64,000 bases of DNA from Ligilactobacillus cholophilus (GTDB taxonomy: Bacteria > Bacillota > Bacilli > Lactobacillales > Lactobacillaceae), in NCBI RefSeq assembly GCF_030389495.1, contig NZ_CP127832.1:744001-808000 (forward strand), given 5' to 3'. The translations under genes were made by a program, and so were the position numbers. Shown piece after piece: positions 5,131 to 59,438 of this stretch; positions within the stretch are counted from its first letter, which is position 1, and each line of letters opens with the position of its first letter. Below the pieces are notes generated by a model, which was given only the letters and a program-made list of their open reading frames with translations, had not been told where the DNA came from and made no database searches.

Positions 5131-5385
5131 ATGCCTATTATTAAATCTGCAATCAAACGTGTTAAAGTAAATGAAAAAGCAAATGATCGCAACTCTGCAC
5201 AATTAAGCAAGATGCGTACAGCTGTTAAGAAATTTGAAAAAGCTAAGACTGCTGGTGCTGATAATGTTGAAGAACTTTATCAAGCAGCTGTTTCTGCTGT
5301 TGATAAGGCAGCTTCAAAAGGCTTAATTAAAGCTAATAAAGCTGCTCGTGATAAATCACGTATGGCTAATCGTTTAGCTAAATAA
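5131..5385 (+). CDS. rpsT: 30S ribosomal protein S20
   Basis: The 84-residue S20 is a basic helical protein that binds 16S rRNA helices 9 and 44. It begins [20 protein letters not shown] and shows the typical alanine- and lysine-rich helices, ending [12 protein letters not shown]. The start at 5131 follows GTGGAGGTG. An open frame 14 codons further upstream overlaps the promoter's transcribed start and has no ribosome site, so it was rejected. The gene is convergent with holA and shares a bidirectional terminator with it. Confidence 0.97.
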
Positions 5386-5415
5386 AAAAATCTGGGTTAT
5401 CCCAGATTTTTTTTT
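5386..5415. terminator. Bidirectional terminator shared by rpsT and holA
   Basis: AAAAAATCTGGG and CCCAGATTTTTT enclose TTAT. There is a T run on both strands. The holA stop codon falls in the loop, so the last holA codons are encoded by one arm. Confidence 0.9.
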
Positions 5416-6438: not shown

Positions 6439-8529
6439 TCACTTTAGAGCTTTTTTTATTTTAATATGATTATTTTTAATTTCAACCTTAATCATACCAT
6501 TTTTAGCTGTTATTAAATATGGTATATTATGTCGATTTAATACATCTAATGTTTCCTGGTTGGGATGACCATATCGATTATGCCTTCCAGCAGAAATTAC
6601 CGCTAATTTAGGTTGAATCTTCTGAACAAAATCATCATTCGTTGATGTTTTGCTTCCATGATGTCCAGTTTTTAAAATATCAACTTTTAAATTTGGGTAT
6701 GAATTTATAACTTTCAATTCTCCATTTTGATCTAAATCTCCTGTAAAAATAAATCGAAACGATTCAATTTTTTTATATAACACTAACGAATCTTGATTTC
6801 TTCCCTTACCAGAATTAAACGGATGTAATATTTTAATATTATTTTCATTTGAACTCAAAAAAGTTGTTGGAATAACTTTTACCTTCTGTTCTTTAATTTT
6901 TGCTAAACGTGACCTAAAACTTTTCAGCCTTTCCATCCCCGCTGGCACAAAAATTTTACTAAAATAAATCTTTTTCCCAATACTTGGAAAATATCCTACA
7001 TGATCAGTATCTTGATGCGTTAAATATAAACCATCAATTCGATTAATTCCCTTACTTAATAAGTAATTTGCAATAACTGATTCTCCAATTGTATTTTGTT
7101 TTTCCTTATTATCATTAAAAGTTACTTTTCCACCTGTATCAATCAATATTATATTCCTATTAAATTTTTCTCGAATTAATGTACTATCCCCTTGTCCAAT
7201 GTCAAAATAAACTATCTCATTTGTCAAAGGAAAATGGATAAAACAGAATGTTATAAAATACACCATTACAATTAAAAAATATTTAATCATCAAATTTTTT
7301 CGATTTTCACATCTAAATTGAATAAATAAAATAAATATCACAATAACTATTGGCATTTTTCCAAATGTAATTAAAAATGGTAAACTTGCTAAGCATTTAA
7401 ACCAATGATCAAATATATTTAAAACAAATGATACACCGCTTTTAAAAATAGGCATTGAAATTCCAATAATTGTAAGTGGAAAAATAATTTTCTCGAATAA
7501 ATAACCAACTACAATTGAAAGAATAGAAGTTAAAATATTCCACTGGAATGTGCTATTTAAAATTAAAGGCATACTATAATTATTAAGTTTAAAATTTAGA
7601 AAAATCGAAGACTCTTCCTCACTTGATAATAAAATGAACGTCATTAAATAACTTAGTTGTGCTCCTAGTGAATATAGTAATGCTGGGAAAAAAGCTAAAT
7701 GAATAATTAATGCAATACTCCAGCATTCAATTCCAGATAATGGCACTTTTAATACAAATGAGGAAATTATTCCTAGACAAATCATTAAAACCGCACGTAC
7801 TAAACTTAAATTTTCTCCACCAATTATGCAATAACATGGAAAAACTAACAATAATATTAAATCTATAACTTCTTTGGAAATTCGGAACAACTGTAAAATA
7901 TCAGTTATGTAACGTCTAATAAAAAAAACATGCATTCCAGAAAGACAAAATAAATATAAAAGCCCTAAAGTTCTTATATTATTACTTGTTTCATAAAAAT
8001 CATCTGTTAATATACCTAATATTAAAGCACTTGCATAACTACCTAAAATTTTAGGAAATGTATTAAAATAATTGATTAGCTTTTCACGAATTATATGAAT
8101 ATTAATTATTATTTTTTCTATTAAAGAATTGGCAGTTTTACTTTTACAATTTATTTTATTTACAAATGCGATATAATAAATATTTTTACTCAATAAAAAA
8201 TTTCTATAATTAAATTGGTTTTCATTTGTAGGCAAGTCTGGAGTTCTGATTTTGCCATTAATTTGAAGTAATAATTTTCCATGAAACTTTTTCAAATAAT
8301 CTAAATCGTTAATTTTTGATGGCATATAAACTATTTGAATTTGCTCATTATTATGAAGATCTTTTGCAACAAATTTAGCTGAATCTTCTGTATATTTAAT
8401 CTCATCAGAATAAACTTGAACAACAGCATTTTGATATACTCTATCTTCAATGTGATTATAAAACTTTTCTCTAAATTCTAATTGAAAAAAACTCCAAAGT
8501 ATTCCACCAATAAATAAAGTAATAATCAT
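6439..8529 (-). CDS. comEC: DNA internalization channel protein ComEC/Rec2
   Basis: Membrane channel for uptake of transforming single-stranded DNA. From the ATG at 8529 there are 696 residues: an OB-like extracytoplasmic region, many membrane helices in the competence domain (for example AGSYASALILGILTDDFYE-like and LGLLYLFCLSGMHVF segments), then a C-terminal metallo-beta-lactamase domain with DIGQGDSTLI, HQDTDHVGYF and TGHHGSKTS. This ATG has no ribosome site. The frame stays open 46 or more codons upstream and encodes two further hydrophobic helices (RKYYLLFFAFECIILNF and NIIILLILFLRIYF), as expected of a full ComEC. No ATG, GTG or TTG occurs there, so translation may begin at ATA/ATT near 8665-8670. 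The domains are otherwise intact. Confidence 0.93.
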   Translation of the reverse strand: MIITLFIGGILWSFFQLEFREKFYNHIEDRVYQNAVVQVYSDEIKYTEDSAKFVAKDLHNNEQIQIVYMPSKINDLDYLKKFHGKLLLQINGKIRTPDLPTNENQFNYRNFLLSKNIYYIAFVNKINCKSKTANSLIEKIIINIHIIREKLINYFNTFPKILGSYASALILGILTDDFYETSNNIRTLGLLYLFCLSGMHVFFIRRYITDILQLFRISKEVIDLILLLVFPCYCIIGGENLSLVRAVLMICLGIISSFVLKVPLSGIECWSIALIIHLAFFPALLYSLGAQLSYLMTFILLSSEEESSIFLNFKLNNYSMPLILNSTFQWNILTSILSIVVGYLFEKIIFPLTIIGISMPIFKSGVSFVLNIFDHWFKCLASLPFLITFGKMPIVIVIFILFIQFRCENRKNLMIKYFLIVMVYFITFCFIHFPLTNEIVYFDIGQGDSTLIREKFNRNIILIDTGGKVTFNDNKEKQNTIGESVIANYLLSKGINRIDGLYLTHQDTDHVGYFPSIGKKIYFSKIFVPAGMERLKSFRSRLAKIKEQKVKVIPTTFLSSNENNIKILHPFNSGKGRNQDSLVLYKKIESFRFIFTGDLDQNGELKVINSYPNLKVDILKTGHHGSKTSTNDDFVQKIQPKLAVISAGRHNRYGHPNQETLDVLNRHNIPYLITAKNGMIKVEIKNNHIKIKKALK

Positions 8530-8666: not shown

Positions 8667-9152
8667 TTATTCCCGATTTTCTTCTGCAACTTTGACAACC
8701 GATTGCAAATATTCTGGATTAATTTTTACTTGTTCAACATCAACATTTTTCTTCTTTAGTAAAGAAAGTGCATAAGGATCATTATGGTAATTTCTTAAAT
8801 AATAAATTTTTTTAATTCCAGCTTGTAAAAGCATTTTAGTACATTGTAAACATGGAAAATCAGTTACATAAATTTCTGCATCTGATGTAGCTATTCCAAA
8901 CTTTGCACATTGTAAAATTGCATTCATTTCAGCATGAATTGTACGTAAACAATGTCCATTTACTATATAACATCCTTCATCAATACAGTGAACGTCTCCA
9001 GATACAGATCCATTATACCCACCTGCTATGATTCGATCGTCACGTACTAAAATAGCACCAACTGATAATCTTTTACATGTTCCTCTCATCGATAACAATA
9101 TTGCTTGTGACATAAAGTATTGATTCCAAGGAATTCTATTTTTATTACACAT
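8667..9152 (-). CDS. comEB: ComE operon protein 2, dCMP deaminase family
   Basis: Zinc-dependent cytidine/deoxycytidylate deaminase family protein of 161 residues. The zinc motif is HAE (in TIHAEMNAIL) and PCLQC (in DFPCLQCTKML). The protein likely converts dCMP to dUMP; in Bacillus the homologue is not needed for transformation despite its place in the comE operon. I chose the ATG giving MCNKNRIPW at 9152, because the GGAGG at 9161-9165 sits just upstream; the earlier ATG overlaps that site. Its stop overlaps the region where comEC must begin. Order comEA-comEB-comEC as in Bacillus. Confidence 0.93.
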   Translation of the reverse strand: MCNKNRIPWNQYFMSQAILLSMRGTCKRLSVGAILVRDDRIIAGGYNGSVSGDVHCIDEGCYIVNGHCLRTIHAEMNAILQCAKFGIATSDAEIYVTDFPCLQCTKMLLQAGIKKIYYLRNYHNDPYALSLLKKKNVDVEQVKINPEYLQSVVKVAEENRE

Positions 9153-9190
9153 AATAAACACCTCCATAAAAAATAGTATAACAGAATTCT

Positions 9191-9847
9191 TTAAACGCAG
9201 ACTTGAGATGCTAAATTTTGAAAACTTTTTTCACCAATCCCATCTACATTTTTTAAATCATCGATTGCTTTAAATCCACCATGTTGTTGTCTATAATCCA
9301 AAATTTTTTGTGCTTTTTTCTCTCCAACGCCATTTAATTGTTTTAATTGTTCAAGAGTTGCTGTATTTAAATTAATTTTATTAGTTTCATTTGATGCATT
9401 TGAATTATTACTTTGATCTTGAATACTACTATTCAATGAAACATCATTTGATATTGGAATTGTCTCTCCCTTTATAGGAACATAAATTACCATTTGGTCT
9501 GTTAATTTTTGTGCTAAATTCACTCGATTACAATCAGAATTTTTACTTAATCCACCTGCTTTCTGAATAACATCTCCAACCCTTTGATTTGGATCCATTT
9601 TATATGCTCCTGGATGATTTACCGCTCCTTTTATATCTACATATAAATCTGAGTTACTTACTGATTGTTCTGTAACAGTTGAAGATGTTGTATTACTTTC
9701 AATAGTTGATGAAAAATTAAATTTAGACTCATCCAAATCAGATTGTTTGTATGATGGCATAAACAAACAACATACTATTCCAACTATTAATAATCCAATA
9801 ATGATTTTATTTTTATGCTCTTCCCAAATAAATTTTATATTTTCCAC
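9191..9847 (-). CDS. comEA: Competence DNA receptor ComEA
   Basis: Membrane-anchored DNA-binding protein that captures transforming DNA and hands it to ComEC. It has 218 residues: a single N-terminal membrane anchor (IIIGLLIVGIVCCLFM), a SLBB domain (YVDIKGAVNHPGAYKM onwards), a serine/asparagine-rich linker, and a C-terminal helix-hairpin-helix pair (INLNTATLEQLKQLNGVGEKK and VDGIGEKSFQNL). I chose the GTG at 9847, after GGAGG; the in-frame ATG five codons earlier overlaps that site. A box shared with radC lies 30 bases upstream, directly after the terminator of the protease gene, so this is probably the first gene of a comEA-EB-EC-holA transcript. Confidence 0.94.
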   Translation of the reverse strand: MENIKFIWEEHKNKIIIGLLIVGIVCCLFMPSYKQSDLDESKFNFSSTIESNTTSSTVTEQSVSNSDLYVDIKGAVNHPGAYKMDPNQRVGDVIQKAGGLSKNSDCNRVNLAQKLTDQMVIYVPIKGETIPISNDVSLNSSIQDQSNNSNASNETNKINLNTATLEQLKQLNGVGEKKAQKILDYRQQHGGFKAIDDLKNVDGIGEKSFQNLASQVCV

Positions 9848-9876
9848 AATTAATACCTCCATAAAAAAATTGCCAT

Positions 9877-9891
9877 CATTATCTATATACG
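9877..9891 (-). promoter_or_regulatory. Candidate competence promoter box of comEA
   Basis: Minus-strand CGTATATAGATAATG, 29 bases before the comEA start and immediately after the T run of the preceding terminator. It matches the box upstream of radC at 14 of 15 positions. It also resembles the CGAATA core of ComX/SigX boxes of Lactobacillales, with one difference. The role is inferred. Confidence 0.5.
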
Positions 9892-9927
9892 AAAAAAAAG
9901 AAATTATTTTAAAATAATTTCTTTTTT
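9892..9927 (-). terminator. Terminator of the PDZ/Lon protease gene
   Basis: A long perfect A/T stem (AAAGAAATTATTTT and its complement) with a T run on the minus strand, abutting the stop codon. Confidence 0.85.
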
Positions 9928-10985
9928 TATTTATTATTTAATTTATTTAGATAATTTACTGCGTCATCAAAAGTCCTTACTGGAACTATTTTCATTTTTG
10001 TATGGATTTTTTTAGCAGCTGCTTTTGCTTCTTCATAATTAGTTTGCAAATCTGGATACTCTTTTTTTATTTCTTTAGGAATTGGATTATTTGGTACAAA
10101 GAAAATTGATGCTTTAGCTTTCGCTGCTGCAACAACTTTCTTATCAACTCCGCCGATATCTCCAACTTGACCATCAGAGTTAATTGTCCCAGTCCCAGCA
10201 ATTTTTTTACCATTTAAAAGATTACCATCGATCAAATCATTATAAATCTGTAATGACATCATTAACCCAGCAGATGGTCCCTCAATTCCATTCATGTTAG
10301 CTTTAACTTTATTAGAAGTTTCTACTTTTGTTCTATCAGCTAATGTAATTCCTATTCCATATTGGCTTGTACCTTGAAGTTTCTGTGTCGTTCCTGTTAA
10401 TTTTTTTAATTTATCTCCACTTTGAACACCGATAGTAATTTTAGAATTTCTAGGTAATGATTTTATATAGTTTATATAGCCTTGAGAATCATCAAAATGT
10501 TTTCCGTTTACTGACTTAACAGTATCACCAACATGTAATTTACCCTTAAAACTTGAATTTGACATAACAGACATTACATAAAGTCCTAAGTACTTACGTG
10601 TTACCTTTTTATTTGCTGCTTTAAAAGCAACATATTTAGCTTCATTAATAGCGTCATCCATATAATATTGTTGAATCTTTTGATAATCTTTTTCTGAATT
10701 TCCTTGATATATATCCTGCGAACTATCACGATCAGCAAAAGGATTCAAATAACTCATTACATATGTTAAAGGAGTCGCACGCATTTCTCGAATATAAACA
10801 AGCATAACCTCTCCTTTTTTATTTTTTATCTGTTTTCCATTAGAGTTATCTACTTTGATATATTGTGATATATTTTCAGCAGATCCTGGTAATTCAATAT
10901 AGTAAGGTAATGGTAGAAAAACTGCTAATAATATCAAAATTGATACTATTGTAGCTATTAAAATTTTTTTAGTCTTTTTTTTCAT
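9927..10985 (-). CDS. SepM/YlbL-family PDZ and Lon-type serine protease
   Basis: Membrane-anchored serine protease of 352 residues. An N-terminal membrane segment (ILIATIVSILILLAVFLPL) is followed by an extracytoplasmic PDZ domain (about 145-215, with GKLHVGDTVKSVNGKHF) and a Lon-like S16 domain. The catalytic Ser is in GIEGPSAGLMM and the Lys in IGGVDKKVVAA. Streptococcal SepM trims the competence peptide and the Bacillus homologue is YlbL. Here it sits directly upstream of comEA but is separated by a terminator. It overlaps the end of coaD by 17 bases, so it belongs to the ylbG-rsmD-coaD-protease operon. A pheromone-processing role is inference from family and place. Confidence 0.88.
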   Translation of the reverse strand: MKKKTKKILIATIVSILILLAVFLPLPYYIELPGSAENISQYIKVDNSNGKQIKNKKGEVMLVYIREMRATPLTYVMSYLNPFADRDSSQDIYQGNSEKDYQKIQQYYMDDAINEAKYVAFKAANKKVTRKYLGLYVMSVMSNSSFKGKLHVGDTVKSVNGKHFDDSQGYINYIKSLPRNSKITIGVQSGDKLKKLTGTTQKLQGTSQYGIGITLADRTKVETSNKVKANMNGIEGPSAGLMMSLQIYNDLIDGNLLNGKKIAGTGTINSDGQVGDIGGVDKKVVAAAKAKASIFFVPNNPIPKEIKKEYPDLQTNYEEAKAAAKKIHTKMKIVPVRTFDDAVNYLNKLNNK

Positions 10986-46864: not shown

Positions 46865-46897
46865 AAAAAAAAGCAGACTTAAAAGTCTGCTTTTTTT
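46865..46897. terminator. Bidirectional terminator between DUF4044 and racD
   Basis: AGCAGACTT and its complement, with an A run on one side and a T run on the other. Confidence 0.9.
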
Positions 46898-47603
46898 ATT
46901 TTTGCATTTTTATAGCCTTTTCTAAAGTTTTTTCAACAAGTACTATTTGACCATCAATAATTGGTAAATTATCAATTGGTTCACGCTCTTGAGCAAGTGA
47001 TAATTCTGTACATCCAAGAATAACCACATCACAATTCAATTCATTAACCATTGTATTAACTAACCCATGAAATAATTGACGATCAACATAATCCTTTTCT
47101 TTAATATCAGTGTAAATTAATTGGTTTACCTTATCTTGAATTACATCTGTTGGCTTAACAAATTCATACCCAGCTTTTTTTATTTCATCCTCATAAACAT
47201 GATCAACGATCGTTCCATGAGTTGCAAGTAATCCTATTCTTTTTGCTGTAGGAAATTTTACTCCAATTGATTTTACTGCTTCACGTGGCATATGCAAAAT
47301 TGGAATATTCGTTAAACTCTGCAAGTCATCATAAAAATAATGAGCAGTATTACATGGAAGCGTAAAAAAATCTGGCTTTAATTTTGCTTGTTGCTTGATA
47401 TCTTCAGCTAAGTCTGGAAATGGACTTGGCTTTGAATCATCAAGAATGTAGGCTGTTCGATCAGGAACAGTCGCATGGTTGACCAAAATATAATTTAAAT
47501 AATCTTGATCTTGATGAGCCTTAATTCGTTTATTCAATTGATGAATATAACTTTCGGTTGCCATGGTTCCCATGCCACCAATTATTGTAAAAAAGTTTTT
47601 CAT
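46896..47603 (-). CDS. racD: Aspartate racemase
   Basis: Interconverts L- and D-aspartate. It has 235 residues of the PLP-independent Asp/Glu racemase fold. The two catalytic cysteines are in TLPCNTAHYF near 82 and VILGCTELSLA near 195. GGMGTMATESYI at the N-terminus is also typical. It lies three bases after the D-aspartate ligase gene, so the pair should make and use D-Asp for the peptidoglycan side bridge. Confidence 0.93.
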   Translation of the reverse strand: MKNFFTIIGGMGTMATESYIHQLNKRIKAHQDQDYLNYILVNHATVPDRTAYILDDSKPSPFPDLAEDIKQQAKLKPDFFTLPCNTAHYFYDDLQSLTNIPILHMPREAVKSIGVKFPTAKRIGLLATHGTIVDHVYEDEIKKAGYEFVKPTDVIQDKVNQLIYTDIKEKDYVDRQLFHGLVNTMVNELNCDVVILGCTELSLAQEREPIDNLPIIDGQIVLVEKTLEKAIKMQK

Positions 47604-47606
47604 AAT

Positions 47607-48863
47607 TTATCCCTTGTTTTCCTTAAAGTAACGTTTAAAGTTCTTAGCATAATTATGTTCCATCCATTTAATTAATGCCCAACGTTTGAAGTTCATATCT
47701 TTATCATAACGATATGTCATTCCGTATCGCTTATGATCAATTAAATCAAGAGCGCGCTCTTTATCACCATTTTGGCGAGCATATTTCTTAAATGTTTTAA
47801 CAGCGACACCTAACCAAAGTTGATGCTTATTTGCATCTTTATTTCCGTAAACCGTTTCTGCATCTGTCAATTCATTTGTTACATAATCCTTAACGACCCA
47901 TGATGCTAGGTTATAGCCATTTAAAGTTACAAAGAAACTACTACGTCCTTGACGCAAGTTGATTTCAAATAATTTATATGTGTTATCACGTGCATCATAC
48001 TTCATATCAAAGTTTGCATAACCCGTAAATTTAATATCTTCTAAGAATTTTTGGAAACGCATATAAATATCTTTATTGTATTCTGGCAAAATTGCAACAT
48101 AGTTTCCAATTGCAGCTGGAGATGGATCTTCTAATAAAGGATGTCCAAGACACATCATTTTAACTTTATGATTTTGATCAACATACGCATTTAATACACG
48201 CATATTACTATCATCACCAGGAATAAAATCTTGTAAAATGAAATCTGATTCATAACCATTTGTATATGCCTTTTGTAAAATTTCATCTAATTCAGGACGT
48301 GATTTTACACGGTAGGCTTTTTTTCTGCCTTCGAAACTAATATCAACCCATTCAACACTGTTTGAAGGTTTTAATGCAACTGGATAATCAAAAAGTTGTT
48401 CAACAGGTTCTTTACTTTCCCACATTTCCTTTGTAATAACTTTTGTTTTAGGATATGGTAAATCATATTCGTCACAGATTTTATAAAATGATTCTTTTTT
48501 ATTTAATTTCTTCAACAAATCATAATCAATATATGGACAAACAAAAACATCTGATAATTCATCTTTATGTTTAGAAATTAATTCTGCATATCCATCACCA
48601 CAACCAATTAAAATAACTGGTTCTTCATGATCTTTGTATTGTTCTTTAATTTTTAACATTGAATTAATCCATGTTGGATCTTCTGAAAATCCATCTATTA
48701 ATTCTAAATCAACAATTTCAGTAAAACGAGTTGGAGCTAATTGACGTTCAGCAATAGCTTTAACTGGTTTATTTGTTAATTCATAGAATGAACGTGCCAT
48801 TCCATAAACATTAAAGTCACTTCCTAATAAAATTGGTGTAAAATCTGCTGTTTTATTCTTCAT
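47607..48863 (-). CDS. D-aspartate ligase, ATP-grasp (Asl type)
   Basis: Activates D-aspartate with ATP and joins it to the epsilon amine of L-Lys in UDP-MurNAc-pentapeptide, as the Enterococcus faecium enzyme does. It has 418 residues. An N-terminal region with PILLGSDFNVYGMARSFY is followed by the ATP-grasp domain: PVALKPSNSVEW, FILQDFIPGDDSNMRVLNAY, and GYANFDMKYD with FEINLRQGRSSFF, the metal and nucleotide residues. The start overlaps the end of murE by 11 bases and racD follows by three, forming a murE-ligase-racD operon. Specificity for D-Asp is inferred from that neighbourhood. Confidence 0.85.
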   Translation of the reverse strand: MKNKTADFTPILLGSDFNVYGMARSFYELTNKPVKAIAERQLAPTRFTEIVDLELIDGFSEDPTWINSMLKIKEQYKDHEEPVILIGCGDGYAELISKHKDELSDVFVCPYIDYDLLKKLNKKESFYKICDEYDLPYPKTKVITKEMWESKEPVEQLFDYPVALKPSNSVEWVDISFEGRKKAYRVKSRPELDEILQKAYTNGYESDFILQDFIPGDDSNMRVLNAYVDQNHKVKMMCLGHPLLEDPSPAAIGNYVAILPEYNKDIYMRFQKFLEDIKFTGYANFDMKYDARDNTYKLFEINLRQGRSSFFVTLNGYNLASWVVKDYVTNELTDAETVYGNKDANKHQLWLGVAVKTFKKYARQNGDKERALDLIDHKRYGMTYRYDKDMNFKRWALIKWMEHNYAKNFKRYFKENKG

Positions 48864-50397
48864 CTTCTAATCCTTCCACAATTTTTTTTGCAACATTTAA
48901 ATCATTTGGATATGGAGTATTTACTCCATTAATTTTTTGATATTTATCCTCGCCTTTACCAGCAAGCACTACAACATCTGAGGTCGTAGCCATTTTAATT
49001 GCTTTTTCAATTGCTTTCTCGCGATCTAATTCAAATTCAACTTGGACTTTATTATGGTCAATATGCTGATCAATTTCTTTTGCAATTTTCATTGGATCCT
49101 CAAATCCTGGATCATCACTTGTTAAAATTGCAATATCAGCTCCTTGACTTAAAGCTTTACCAAAACCTTCACGTCTGGAAACTCCTTTATTTCCAGTTGA
49201 TCCAACTACAACAATTAAACGTTCAACTTTGCGTTGAGCACGTAAAAATTCAAGTAATGCATGTAAACTAGCATAATTATGAGCATAATCAATATATACA
49301 AGTCCATGATTTTTAGTTTGTACCATTTCCATTCTGCCTGCAACTTTTACCTTTGCTAGACCTTTAATTGCATCGTCTGCAGTTGCACTTGCTAATAAAC
49401 TTGCAATAATTACACTAGTAGCATTCCCTTCATTATAGTCTCCAGGAATAGTAATTGTATATTCATTTTCTAATGAAAGTTTTTGAGCCTTTGGTGTTAA
49501 TGCTTTTAATTTAAAACGACTATCAACCAATGTTTCTTCCACATTTTCAATTTTGATATCAATCAAATTACCATCTGGTAAAACTTCTTGGGCTTGATGT
49601 GTAAATGTAAAAAGTTGTTGATCTTCTACATCTGATTTAGCTGCATAATAAATCTCATTAAAATGATCTGAATCAGCATTTAAAATACAGTAATCTGAGT
49701 TTGCTAATATTTGTTCTTTACAAAATAGATAATCCTCAAATGTCGAATGTTCATTTTCACCTACATGATCTGGTGAAATATTTAAAAAGATACCAATATT
49801 ATAATGTAATCCGTAAACTCTATTCTTTTTATATGCTTGAGATGAAACTTCCATCACTAAATGTGTCATTCCATTATCAACAGCGGCACGCATATCATGA
49901 AATAAGTCTAATGATTCAGGAGTAGTTAAATTTGATTTAAAGGTGTCTTCTGGCTTAGGGCCAATTGTCCGATCTACAGTTGAGAATAACGCTGTTTTCC
50001 CATTATTAGCCTTATCTAAAATTCCCTTTGCTAAATATGCACTAGTTGTTTTTCCCTTTGTTCCAGTTATCCCAATTATAAATAAATCATTTTGAGGATA
50101 ACCATAAAACGCTGCTCCTAATAAAGCCATCGCTTTTTGAACATCTGAAACAATTAAATATGATACATCTTTTGATGTTTCATATTTATGTTCAGCAACA
50201 TACCCACTTGCTCCTTTTTCAATTGCACTAGTCAAATATTCTTCTTTAAAGTTTCCCTTACAAAAAAATAAAGTATTTTTTTCAACTTTACGTGAATCAT
50301 ATGTAACATTATCAAAATTGCATTCATTTTGGTGATATTCTACCAATAAATGATGCTCATTTAATAAATTCTGTGCATCTGTTAGGCTTAAAGTCAT
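48853..50397 (-). CDS. murE: UDP-MurNAc-tripeptide ligase MurE, probably L-lysine type
   Basis: Adds the third stem residue. It has 514 residues. GITGTKGKTTSAYL is the P-loop near 110, NLTTPESLDLFHDM binds substrate, and GKGEDKYQ is near the C-terminus. The specificity motif reads DDPGFEDP where DAP enzymes have DNPR, which points to a non-DAP amino acid, most likely L-lysine; ornithine is not excluded. I chose the ATG at 50397, six bases after AAGGTG; the ATG five codons upstream overlaps that site. Confidence 0.93.
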   Translation of the reverse strand: MTLSLTDAQNLLNEHHLLVEYHQNECNFDNVTYDSRKVEKNTLFFCKGNFKEEYLTSAIEKGASGYVAEHKYETSKDVSYLIVSDVQKAMALLGAAFYGYPQNDLFIIGITGTKGKTTSAYLAKGILDKANNGKTALFSTVDRTIGPKPEDTFKSNLTTPESLDLFHDMRAAVDNGMTHLVMEVSSQAYKKNRVYGLHYNIGIFLNISPDHVGENEHSTFEDYLFCKEQILANSDYCILNADSDHFNEIYYAAKSDVEDQQLFTFTHQAQEVLPDGNLIDIKIENVEETLVDSRFKLKALTPKAQKLSLENEYTITIPGDYNEGNATSVIIASLLASATADDAIKGLAKVKVAGRMEMVQTKNHGLVYIDYAHNYASLHALLEFLRAQRKVERLIVVVGSTGNKGVSRREGFGKALSQGADIAILTSDDPGFEDPMKIAKEIDQHIDHNKVQVEFELDREKAIEKAIKMATTSDVVVLAGKGEDKYQKINGVNTPYPNDLNVAKKIVEGLEDEE

Positions 50398-50457
50398 TAA
50401 TTTCACCTTCATTTAAATAGACTTCAACACCCATTATTCCATATTTTCATATAAAAA

Positions 50458-57992: not shown

Positions 57993-58718
57993 ATGAGTAT
58001 TGTTTTTATTGCATGTATCGCATTTTGCGCTGCACTTATTCAAACAACTGGTGGTTTTGGCTTTGGATCATTATTTGTACCACTAGTTTCATTATTATTA
58101 CCATATAAATATGCCACAATGATTTCTGTATTAACCTGCATGTTTTTACAGATTACCATCATTATTCGTTACTTTAATAAAATAAAGTGGAACATAATTA
58201 TTTTCCCTGCATTAGCTTCGTTTATTACAAGTAGCATTGGTGTTCACTTAATGGTAGGTTTTTCATCAAAATTTATGGCTATTTTACTTGGTATTTTTCT
58301 TTGGATTTTAGCAATCTATCTAATTTTCATTGCTCCAAAGATTCACTTAAAAAAGAACTTTCTAACTGAGGTTGGCGTAGGTTGTTTAAGTGGCCTCAGT
58401 GGTGGATTATTTGCTGTTGGTGGACCACCAATGGTTGCATATTACGATTCCGTCATTGATGAACCAATTGTATATCAAGCTACAATTCAAACATTCTTTT
58501 TCTTAACATCAATTGTATTGCTTATCAATGATTTCTTATGTACTAAATTCACTGCAGATTTAGTTCCGATTTCAGCATTCTCTATAATCGGATGCTTAGT
58601 TGGAACATTTATTGGAAATAAAATTTTGCAACGAATCTCAATGAATACAGTACGTAAAATAGCATATACAGTAATGTTACTAGCCGGAACATATAACTTG
58701 ATTAAAGGTTTAATTTAA
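57993..58718 (+). CDS. TauE/SafE family permease
   Basis: A 241-residue inner-membrane protein with about eight helices and the internal duplication of the family. TGGFGFGSLFVPLVSLLLPY is in the first half and the matching GGLFAVGGPPMVAYY in the second. Family members export sulfite or organosulfonates, or import other anions; the substrate here is unknown. I chose the ATG at 57993 after GAAAGG. It ends in TTAA, a four-base overlap with the radC stop from the other strand. Confidence 0.88.
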   Translation: MSIVFIACIAFCAALIQTTGGFGFGSLFVPLVSLLLPYKYATMISVLTCMFLQITIIIRYFNKIKWNIIIFPALASFITSSIGVHLMVGFSSKFMAILLGIFLWILAIYLIFIAPKIHLKKNFLTEVGVGCLSGLSGGLFAVGGPPMVAYYDSVIDEPIVYQATIQTFFFLTSIVLLINDFLCTKFTADLVPISAFSIIGCLVGTFIGNKILQRISMNTVRKIAYTVMLLAGTYNLIKGLI

Positions 58719-59389
58719 ATAAATTGTTGTTCACGAAAACTAAAATAATCGTCTTGTCCAATTACTAAATGATCAAGTAATTCAATTCCTAGAATTTCAC
58801 CACTTTTGACTAATCTTTTAGTCATATTATGATCATTTTGTGATGGCTCTGTATGACCACTTGGATGATTATGAGCAATAATTACTCTTGCAGCACTATA
58901 TTGAATAGCAATCTTAAATATTTCTCTAGGATGAACTGTTGCTTGATTTAAAGTTCCTTTGAAAATTTCTTTTTCATATATGATTTGATTTTGAGTATCC
59001 AAAAAGACACCATATAATACTTCTTGATGGTAGGATGACATCTTCATTTGAAGATATTCTCCTACCATTTTGCTTGAGCAAATTTTGCCTAAAATTAATT
59101 GTGGTGACTGATTTGTTCGTTTAATCAATTCACATATAGCTTCCATTTTTAAGGATTTTGCTTCACTCTTAAAATATAATTGCCAGTCACTTCGTGTTAA
59201 TTTATTCATTTGTGACAAATTATAGTTTTCAGCAAAGTAAATTTCTGAAATTTCTTGTGCAAGTTTATCTGAACAGAATGTTTGCAACACTACATACATT
59301 AGTTCTTGATCATTCAGTGTTTCTGCACCAAAACGTTGAATTTGTCTTTCTAAATATTTTAGCTGATATTGTTTATTAATAAATGTCAT
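58715..59389 (-). CDS. radC: RadC family JAB-domain protein
   Basis: A 224-residue protein of the RadC/YsxA family. An N-terminal helix-hairpin-helix-like region (KYLERQIQRFGAETLNDQEL) is followed by a JAB/MPN metalloprotease-like domain with the metal motif HNHPSGHTEPSQND near 173. The family role is unsettled. In streptococci radC is part of the competence regulon although transformation does not need it. A box nearly identical to the one before comEA lies just upstream. Its ribosome site GGAGGG lies in the arm of the upstream gene's terminator hairpin. Confidence 0.93.
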   Translation of the reverse strand: MTFINKQYQLKYLERQIQRFGAETLNDQELMYVVLQTFCSDKLAQEISEIYFAENYNLSQMNKLTRSDWQLYFKSEAKSLKMEAICELIKRTNQSPQLILGKICSSKMVGEYLQMKMSSYHQEVLYGVFLDTQNQIIYEKEIFKGTLNQATVHPREIFKIAIQYSAARVIIAHNHPSGHTEPSQNDHNMTKRLVKSGEILGIELLDHLVIGQDDYFSFREQQFI

Positions 59390-59394
59390 AAAAA

Positions 59395-59431
59395 AATCCC
59401 TCCATTATTTATATACGCAAATGAAGGGGTT
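59395..59431. terminator. Terminator of the HAD gene that also holds the radC ribosome site
   Basis: AACCCCTTCATT pairs with AATGGAGGGATT with one mismatch, followed by TTTTTTT. The 3' arm contains GGAGGG, the radC Shine-Dalgarno sequence. The loop contains the CGTATATA box. Confidence 0.8.
59403..59417 (-). promoter_or_regulatory. Candidate competence promoter box of radC
   Basis: Minus-strand CGTATATAAATAATG, 13 bases before the radC start. It is identical at 14 of 15 positions to the box upstream of comEA. Confidence 0.5.
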
Positions 59432-59438
59432 TTTTTAA

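Follow-up and report, generated by a model that had tools for sequence, protein, structure and literature searches.

Boxes ahead of comEA and radC and their copies in the genome

The window, a stretch of 64,000 nucleotides that corresponds to bases 744001-808000 of the single 1.588 Mb contig making up the genome, carries two near-identical 15-bp boxes on the minus strand. One, CGTATATAGATAATG (9877..9891, with the C at 9891 and the G at 9890), precedes comEA (9191..9847, minus strand), and the other, CGTATATAAATAATG (59403..59417), precedes radC (58715..59389, minus strand); the two are identical at 14 of the 15 bases. The coordinates and the degree of identity given in the original prediction were verified, and the window indeed holds no third full copy. 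The predicted distances are correct as well, the comEA box lying 29 bases ahead of its gene if translation starts at the GTG at 9847, and the radC box 13 bases ahead of the ATG at 59389. An alternative comEA start in the list of open reading frames, the ATG at 9862, is located within the ribosome-binding site.

ComEA was recognized by TIGR00426 (above the cut-off; TIGR01259 scored below it), and RadC by NF000642 and PF04002. Downstream of comEA, on the same strand, are a comEB-like deaminase gene (8667-9167; PF00383) and comEC (6439-8529; TIGR00361), which, judging from the gene order, presumably form one operon with comEA. Elsewhere in the window (46896-50412), aspartate-racemase-like, ATP-grasp-like and MurE-like genes, named by eye from their translations, stand in a row.

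Two exact matches to the box are present in the window, a number reached in none of 100 dinucleotide shuffles. When up to two mismatches are allowed, there are still two matches against 1.08 expected, and 32 of the 100 shuffles reach two, so that only the exact match is informative. At neither box was a minus-strand TTGACA/TATAAT promoter called.

The pattern CGTATATANATAATG, built from the comEA and radC boxes alone, has four exact matches in the genome: the two boxes themselves, one ahead of comGA, and one that is antisense and lies within a gene for a family-8 glycosyltransferase. Allowing one mismatch brings in coiA as well as a match within an rsmF-type rRNA-methyltransferase gene, for a total of six matches compared to one for the reversed control. 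Thus, two of the four new places, comGA and coiA, are directly ahead of late-competence operons, and the other two are intragenic. The dprA gene, located separately via its Pfam family, has CGTATTTAATTAAT at the same position. The widened pattern TTKCGTATWTANWWAAT, which includes dprA and is partly fitted to five of the genome's own sites, matches perfectly at comGA, dprA, comEA, radC and coiA, and with one mismatch at comFA, at tag and at three places within genes. The genome count obtained with this pattern was rejected as evidence because the reversed control gives 7 matches against 10; the positions, not the count, carry the signal, with the box C located 26-44 bases ahead of a late-competence gene or tag in 7 of the 10 matches. 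A search with the bare CGTATA returned 272 matches and was uninformative. This is the genome scan proposed with the original prediction, and its outcome largely supports the promoter reading.

The late-competence genes covered by this analysis are comGA, comEA, comFA, dprA, coiA and radC (ssb, comC and recA were not located), and a common box heads all of these, as is characteristic of late-competence promoters. The core of the box reads CGTATA in five cases, CGTATT at dprA and CGTAGT at comFA. The DNA ahead of the boxes contains T-runs at comEA, comFA, tag and dprA, and pyrimidine or A-run arms at radC and coiA, and is A-rich at comGA. Gene names were assigned through Pfam and NCBIfam (ComEA, RadC, ComGA with NF041000, CoiA_nuc, DprA and methyladenine glycosylase). 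For ComFA, the only matches are to helicase families, and the name derives from the phosphoribosyltransferase gene behind it, which is of the ComFC type (TIGR00201, 75 bits, below the cut-off).

The tag gene, encoding DNA-3-methyladenine glycosylase I (L030 1307-1849, minus strand), has a terminator-like hairpin followed by a box with one mismatch, and likely belongs to the same regulon. A second gene of the DprA family (L008 1306-2295, minus strand), whose product shares 24% identity with DprA over the matched part, has no box; its neighbours are ddl and a gene of the rodA/ftsW type that was named by eye, and it was matched in 8 of the 26 genomes of the genus. CoiA is 99% identical to the protein in an uncultured Ligilactobacillus record and 39-41% identical to those of L. 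aviarius, 'L. excrementigallinarum' and L. araffinosus.

The candidate sigma factor and the motif in related genomes

Only two proteins encoded in the genome match sigma-70 region 2 at E <=0.001, RpoD and a 197-aa SigH/ComX-like protein, the latter being the only alternative sigma factor found. The 197-aa protein matches sigma-70 superfamily models, and NCBIfam SigH models weakly, far below the cut-off, in line with the fast evolution of such sigma factors. Its gene (L023 5523-6116, plus strand) has a divergent lysine riboswitch (5213-5392) on one side and points at a tRNA and rRNA operon on the opposite strand, with which it is convergent. No box was found by eye in the 160 bases upstream of this gene.

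The SigH of Latilactobacillus sakei is likewise only 24% identical to that of Bacillus subtilis, and the location of the SigH gene is displaced in L. salivarius (PMC3364868). Overproduction of SigH in L. sakei raised the expression of comEA 261-, comFA 286-, comGC 421-, comC 608- and dprA 2163-fold in qPCR, with 2.7-fold for recA and just 1.2-fold for ssb; the DNA-uptake genes were turned on, yet no transformation was detectable (PMC3364868). According to a 2025 review (PMC12470161), the majority of lactic acid bacteria either cannot be transformed or require genetic changes for it. The present genome resembles the L. sakei regulon in combining a lactobacillar SigH-like factor with comG, comE, comFA and dprA as putative targets, and differs from it in radC, coiA and tag, which are absent from Table 2 of that study (PMC3364868). 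The main text of PMC3364868 contains none of the terms 'consensus', 'motif', 'box' and 'binding site' and thus presents no promoter element.

The genome scan, the SigH/ComX-like factor and the L. sakei regulon jointly support the original reading of the boxes as competence-sigma promoters. Recognition by the SigH/ComX-like factor, hereafter sigma-X, is highly likely, and the two boxes in the window very probably serve to switch on DNA-uptake genes through a dedicated sigma factor.

The streptococcal ComX/SigX box, known as the cin-box or combox, is TACGAATA, with the extended pneumococcal form TTTTTNHNNNYTHTTMCGAATADWNWRRD ahead of the start site (PMC6001120, PMC6560143); in vitro work on streptococcal ComX/SigX has also been reported (PMC7218084). 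The boxes described here share with it a core of the form CG-x-A, in several cases a T-rich stretch in front, and a position about 20-30 bases ahead of the start codons of coiA, dprA, comGA, comFA, comEA and radC. In contrast to the streptococcal box, the core is CGTATA, CGTATT or CGTAGT, never the exact CGAATA, and the T-rich flank gives way, at radC and coiA, to a stem's 5' arm, with an A-run pairing with the T-run. We therefore file the box as a variant that works like the streptococcal one but lacks its exact core. No lactobacillar ComX/SigH box, and no promoter-in-terminator layout, is described in the titles and abstract openings of the literature searched, and in the main text of a Lactococcus paper (PMC13413889), CGAATA, CGTATA and 'terminator' are absent.

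To compare promoters between species, upstream regions were collected for coiA (78 of the 80 loci returned), radC (24) and dprA (26), the latter two from the 26 genomes of the genus. Further dprA upstreams came from 69 of the 154 additional genomes in which DprA was matched at the level of the order, comprising 29 that were supplied together with loci and 40 hand-picked for family spread; families of this sample are denoted f1, f2 and so on. We dropped two coiA loci (L116, no start found; L164, short upstream), four loci with misplaced starts (L094, L163, L190 and L150), the radC of the same-species genome G009, RadC fragments except L085, and duplicates, which reduced 197 upstreams to 185. 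In G009, dprA (L169, L194) is represented by two overlapping matches, the first with one internal TAA, which indicates either a broken gene or an assembly error.

Expectation-maximisation without a seed, run on the 168 upstreams outside f4 and f8, recovered the motif YYYYTTTTgCGTAttT with a log-likelihood of 737; five shuffled sets reached 41-50. The 14 upstreams of f4, all from one genus, presumably Streptococcus, yielded TTTTTT-x-CGAATA. A box reaching the score cut of 8 is absent from 49 of the 185 upstreams, including all three of f8. This family is presumably Listeria, where competence is run by ComK. In family f2, 10 of the 13 dprA upstreams contain GCGGA-type words about 45-70 bases ahead of the start (L200-L204, L206, L208, L211, L212, L216), perhaps another form of the box.

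The original prediction had noted that the CGTATA core is one base off the streptococcal one and suggested that the box may define the target sites of this organism's alternative sigma factor. The difference is real, but it is not specific to the organism: CGTA is the common core in the sampled upstreams outside f4 and f8, whereas f4 has CGAATA, and therefore the single base separates a streptococcus-like family from the others sampled. Even this separation is not absolute, as in one Ligilactobacillus genome (G005) the coiA box reads CGTAAC and the radC box CGAATT, and some Ligilactobacillus radC boxes read CGAAT. With a promoter motif valid across the family, the regulon becomes readable from sequence, and the SigH question becomes directly testable.

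Terminator-like hairpins and boxes enclosed in stems

Six of the seven operons lie behind a gene on the same strand, the upstream genes being those for a protease, a HAD-family protein, mecA, rnhB, a pfkB-family protein and ddl. All six have a terminator-like hairpin at the predicted sigma-X promoter; comFA, which is divergent from its neighbour, has no such hairpin. Two layouts can be distinguished. In the tandem form, the predicted hairpin precedes the box, with 15 pairs and T9 at comGA, 11 pairs and T7 at tag, and 16 pairs and T8 at comEA. In the nested form, the stem encloses the box, at radC, coiA and dprA.

The comEA hairpin (9892..9928, minus strand) has one G-C pair, the remaining 15 being A-U, and overlaps the preceding gene, which encodes a PDZ/Lon-type protease, at its stop codon. 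The T8 at 9892-9899 is directly followed by the box. At radC, the 5' arm AAAAAAACCCCTTCATT (59420..59436, minus strand, with one C unpaired) lies two bases past the stop codon with which the preceding HAD-family gene ends. The box extends from the loop into the beginning of the 3' arm, in which its last four bases are paired. The 3' arm, TAATGGAGGGA, is the ribosome-binding site and, together with a T7 that ends at the radC start codon, covers 59390..59407 (minus strand). The minus strand reads AAAAAAACCCCTTCATTTG-CGTATATAAATAATGGAGGGATTTTTTT-ATG, and the same plan is found at coiA and dprA, where the 3' arm is again the ribosome-binding site and the T-run is again at the start codon.

The original prediction placed each box right at a terminator. 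As to position, this stands, the comEA box lying behind the T8 of a hairpin and the radC box in the loop of a stem, but a standard terminator scan (>=3 G-C pairs, loop of 3-8) made no call at either site. The stem and T-run of an intrinsic terminator are present at radC, coiA and dprA and ahead of comGA, tag and comEA; the combination of a short loop with at least 3 G-C pairs is missing at the two sites in the window. The resemblance to intrinsic terminators thus consists in a stem and T-run at the end of a same-strand upstream gene, whereas the differences are the long loop, which holds a promoter, the identity of the 3' arm with the ribosome-binding site, and the contact of the T-run with the next start codon. 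Terminator scans restricted to short loops would miss such nested elements.

In the 193 kb of the genome's own DNA that was scanned, 77 matches to the core occur, six of them with a stem of -12 or better. The strongest three of these six stems are those of coiA, radC and dprA; the other three are elsewhere. Predicted unpaired probabilities of the ribosome-binding site rise from the read-through RNA to an RNA started at the sigma-X promoter, from 0.00 to 0.65 at radC, from 0.00 to 0.50 at coiA and from 0.05 to 0.56 at dprA, and drop slightly, from 0.68 to 0.58, at comEA. These folds assume a start at C+12, and C+13 was used for the wider sets of upstreams.

We propose that the box serves as the -10-type element in promoters for sigma-X, and that such promoters head the late-competence operons comG, comE, comFA, dprA, coiA and radC, as well as tag. 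At the nested promoters, RNA reading through from the upstream gene would carry both arms, so that the ribosome-binding site would be paired; with a T-run coming directly behind the stem and reaching the start codon or its vicinity, the read-through message would be neither completed nor translated. Polymerase with sigma-X would start some 13 bases after the box C, either in the loop or just inside the 3' arm, and the resulting transcript, devoid of the 5' arm, would form no stem and leave the ribosome-binding site exposed. This start site is borrowed by analogy from the pneumococcal consensus, in which transcription starts 13 bases after the box C (PMC6001120, PMC6560143). We assign a probability of roughly 0.8 to the explanation as a whole, that is, sigma-X boxes heading late-competence operons, terminator-like hairpins at these operons, and a nested switch operated by the choice of start site. 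For the nested stem on its own, a real role, be it termination, masking or both, is somewhat less secure but still probable.

In attenuators and in leaders that mask ribosome-binding sites, one stem could end transcription and mask the site. The nested element would differ from these in needing neither a ligand nor an antiterminator: with the promoter between the arms, the position of the transcription start would decide. If the proposed layout is real, it is a compact way of silencing a gene to all transcription except its own, and it explains the location of dprA, coiA and radC directly behind same-strand genes. Nesting of a promoter, a terminator and a ribosome-binding site in one element, with complementarity maintained across families despite changing letters, looks new.

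Conservation of the nested stem and alternative explanations

With nesting defined as a stem of at least 6 pairs and -9 kcal/mol around the box, nested promoters are found in Ligilactobacillus at dprA (22/24), radC (19/21) and coiA (10/16). Among dprA promoters with a box in other families, 20 of 25 are nested: 8/12 in f1, 4/4 in f3, 3/3 in f5, 1/1 in f7 and 4/5 in f9. The clearest case is dprA of G011 and G019, which reads AAAAACGCCGCCTTTTGC-box-GCAAAGGCGGCGTTTTT-ATG. Nested promoters also include that of coiA in L. salivarius DSM 20555 (L099) and those of radC and dprA in genome G024. A box score cut of 4 was applied for these counts, for the arm swaps and for unmasking in the wider sets, and one of >=8, reached by 136 of the 185 upstreams, for arm shuffling.

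The best-surviving alternative is that the stem affects only translation or the stability of the RNA, by masking the ribosome-binding site of read-through RNA, and is not a terminator. The unmasking predicted at radC, coiA and dprA of this genome fits this account, and so do the loops, which exceed the limit of the standard scan, and the T-runs at radC, where only 7 of the 19 nested stems are followed by T4 or more. The latter number implies that termination is not the whole story at radC, and the long loops of nested stems make the efficiency of termination uncertain. In contrast, a T4+ run follows the 3' arm in 19 of 22 nested dprA stems and in 9 of 10 nested Ligilactobacillus coiA stems, which is hard to explain without termination. 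A stem combined with a T5+ run at most 3 bases from the start codon is present at dprA in 18/24, at radC in 10/24 and at coiA in 5/17; among 53 other genes of the window, none has such a T-run, and 14 also reach a -9 stem at the ribosome-binding site. Masking alone is accordingly a less likely account, although one with appreciable weight. The rise in the unpaired probability of the ribosome-binding site is general in the wider sets and extends to f4, from 0.05 to 0.71 without matched arms; unmasking was therefore rejected as proof of nesting and supports masking, not nesting as such.

The second alternative accepts the boxes as sigma-X promoters and attributes the complementarity around them to generic pairing of a pyrimidine flank (CCTTTT) with the purine-rich ribosome-binding site. 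The motif columns ahead of the box are indeed pyrimidine-rich, ribosome-site masking is seen in f4 as well, and 6 of the 14 f4 promoters pass the energy cut. However, none of 13 f4 promoters beats shuffles of its arm, and the energy cut was accordingly rejected as the sole criterion of nesting. In this control, each 5' arm was shuffled 60 times, and a promoter passed if the native arm was among the best 5%. In Ligilactobacillus, dprA passes in 21/23, radC in 15/20 and coiA in 8/15; dprA also passes in 11/12 of f3, f5, f7 and f9 and in 6/9 of other Lactobacillaceae. In f2, nesting is not seen, with 2 of 6 passing, and outside Ligilactobacillus, coiA passes in 10 of 38, indicative of weak nesting.

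Generic pairing further predicts that arms from the same species fit no better than arms from different species. In sets thinned to <80% identity, the native combination of arms is better than the median swap between species in 18/20 dprA (Wilcoxon p 0.00011), 15/16 radC (p 0.00033) and 13/14 coiA (p 0.0016) promoters of Ligilactobacillus, and in dprA of other Lactobacillaceae (12/12, p 0.00024) and of f3, f5, f7 and f9 (11/11, p 0.00049). For coiA of other genera, native arms are better in 29/45 (p 0.00024, a small effect), and in f2 and f4 in just 5/9 and 4/11. Moving the 5' segment upstream by another 24 bases abolishes the effect in the five sets named first (9/20, 7/16, 7/14, 6/12 and 4/11). 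The arm swaps together with the shifted control argue against shared base composition and against generic pyrimidine/purine pairing, as does the absence of T-runs next to the start codons of the other window genes, which makes this alternative unlikely. The alignment-free arm swap replaced RNAalifold, which, applied to MAFFT alignments of 23 dprA and 21 radC upstreams, returned 0 pairs, as we attribute to the sliding of the arms relative to the box.

Thus, the arms of nested promoters are complementary in a species-specific manner. In f1, f3, f5 and f9, at least four families of Lactobacillales outside the streptococci, the odds are about even that the sigma-X promoter lies between the arms of the preceding terminator, with the 3' arm being the ribosome-binding site, as an on-switch of about 50 bases that is selected by the start site and requires no ligand or regulator. 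In the dprA promoters of f4, the box is behind T-rich DNA, often with a hairpin and a T-run recognizable by eye, and is not nested.

The inverted repeat could also be an operator bound by a repressor or activator around the promoter, inverted repeats around the -10 element being a common operator layout. The arms, however, vary between species and between genes of one genome and yet stay complementary, which speaks against an operator because a protein site would conserve its sequence, and we regard this reading as very unlikely. The last alternative, that the two boxes arose by chance as A/T-rich words or belong to ordinary sigma-A promoters, is highly unlikely despite the A/T-richness of the genome and the unremarkable number of window matches at two mismatches, given the failure of all shuffles to produce two exact matches, the lack of a called sigma-A promoter at either box, and the unseeded recovery of the motif ahead of orthologues.
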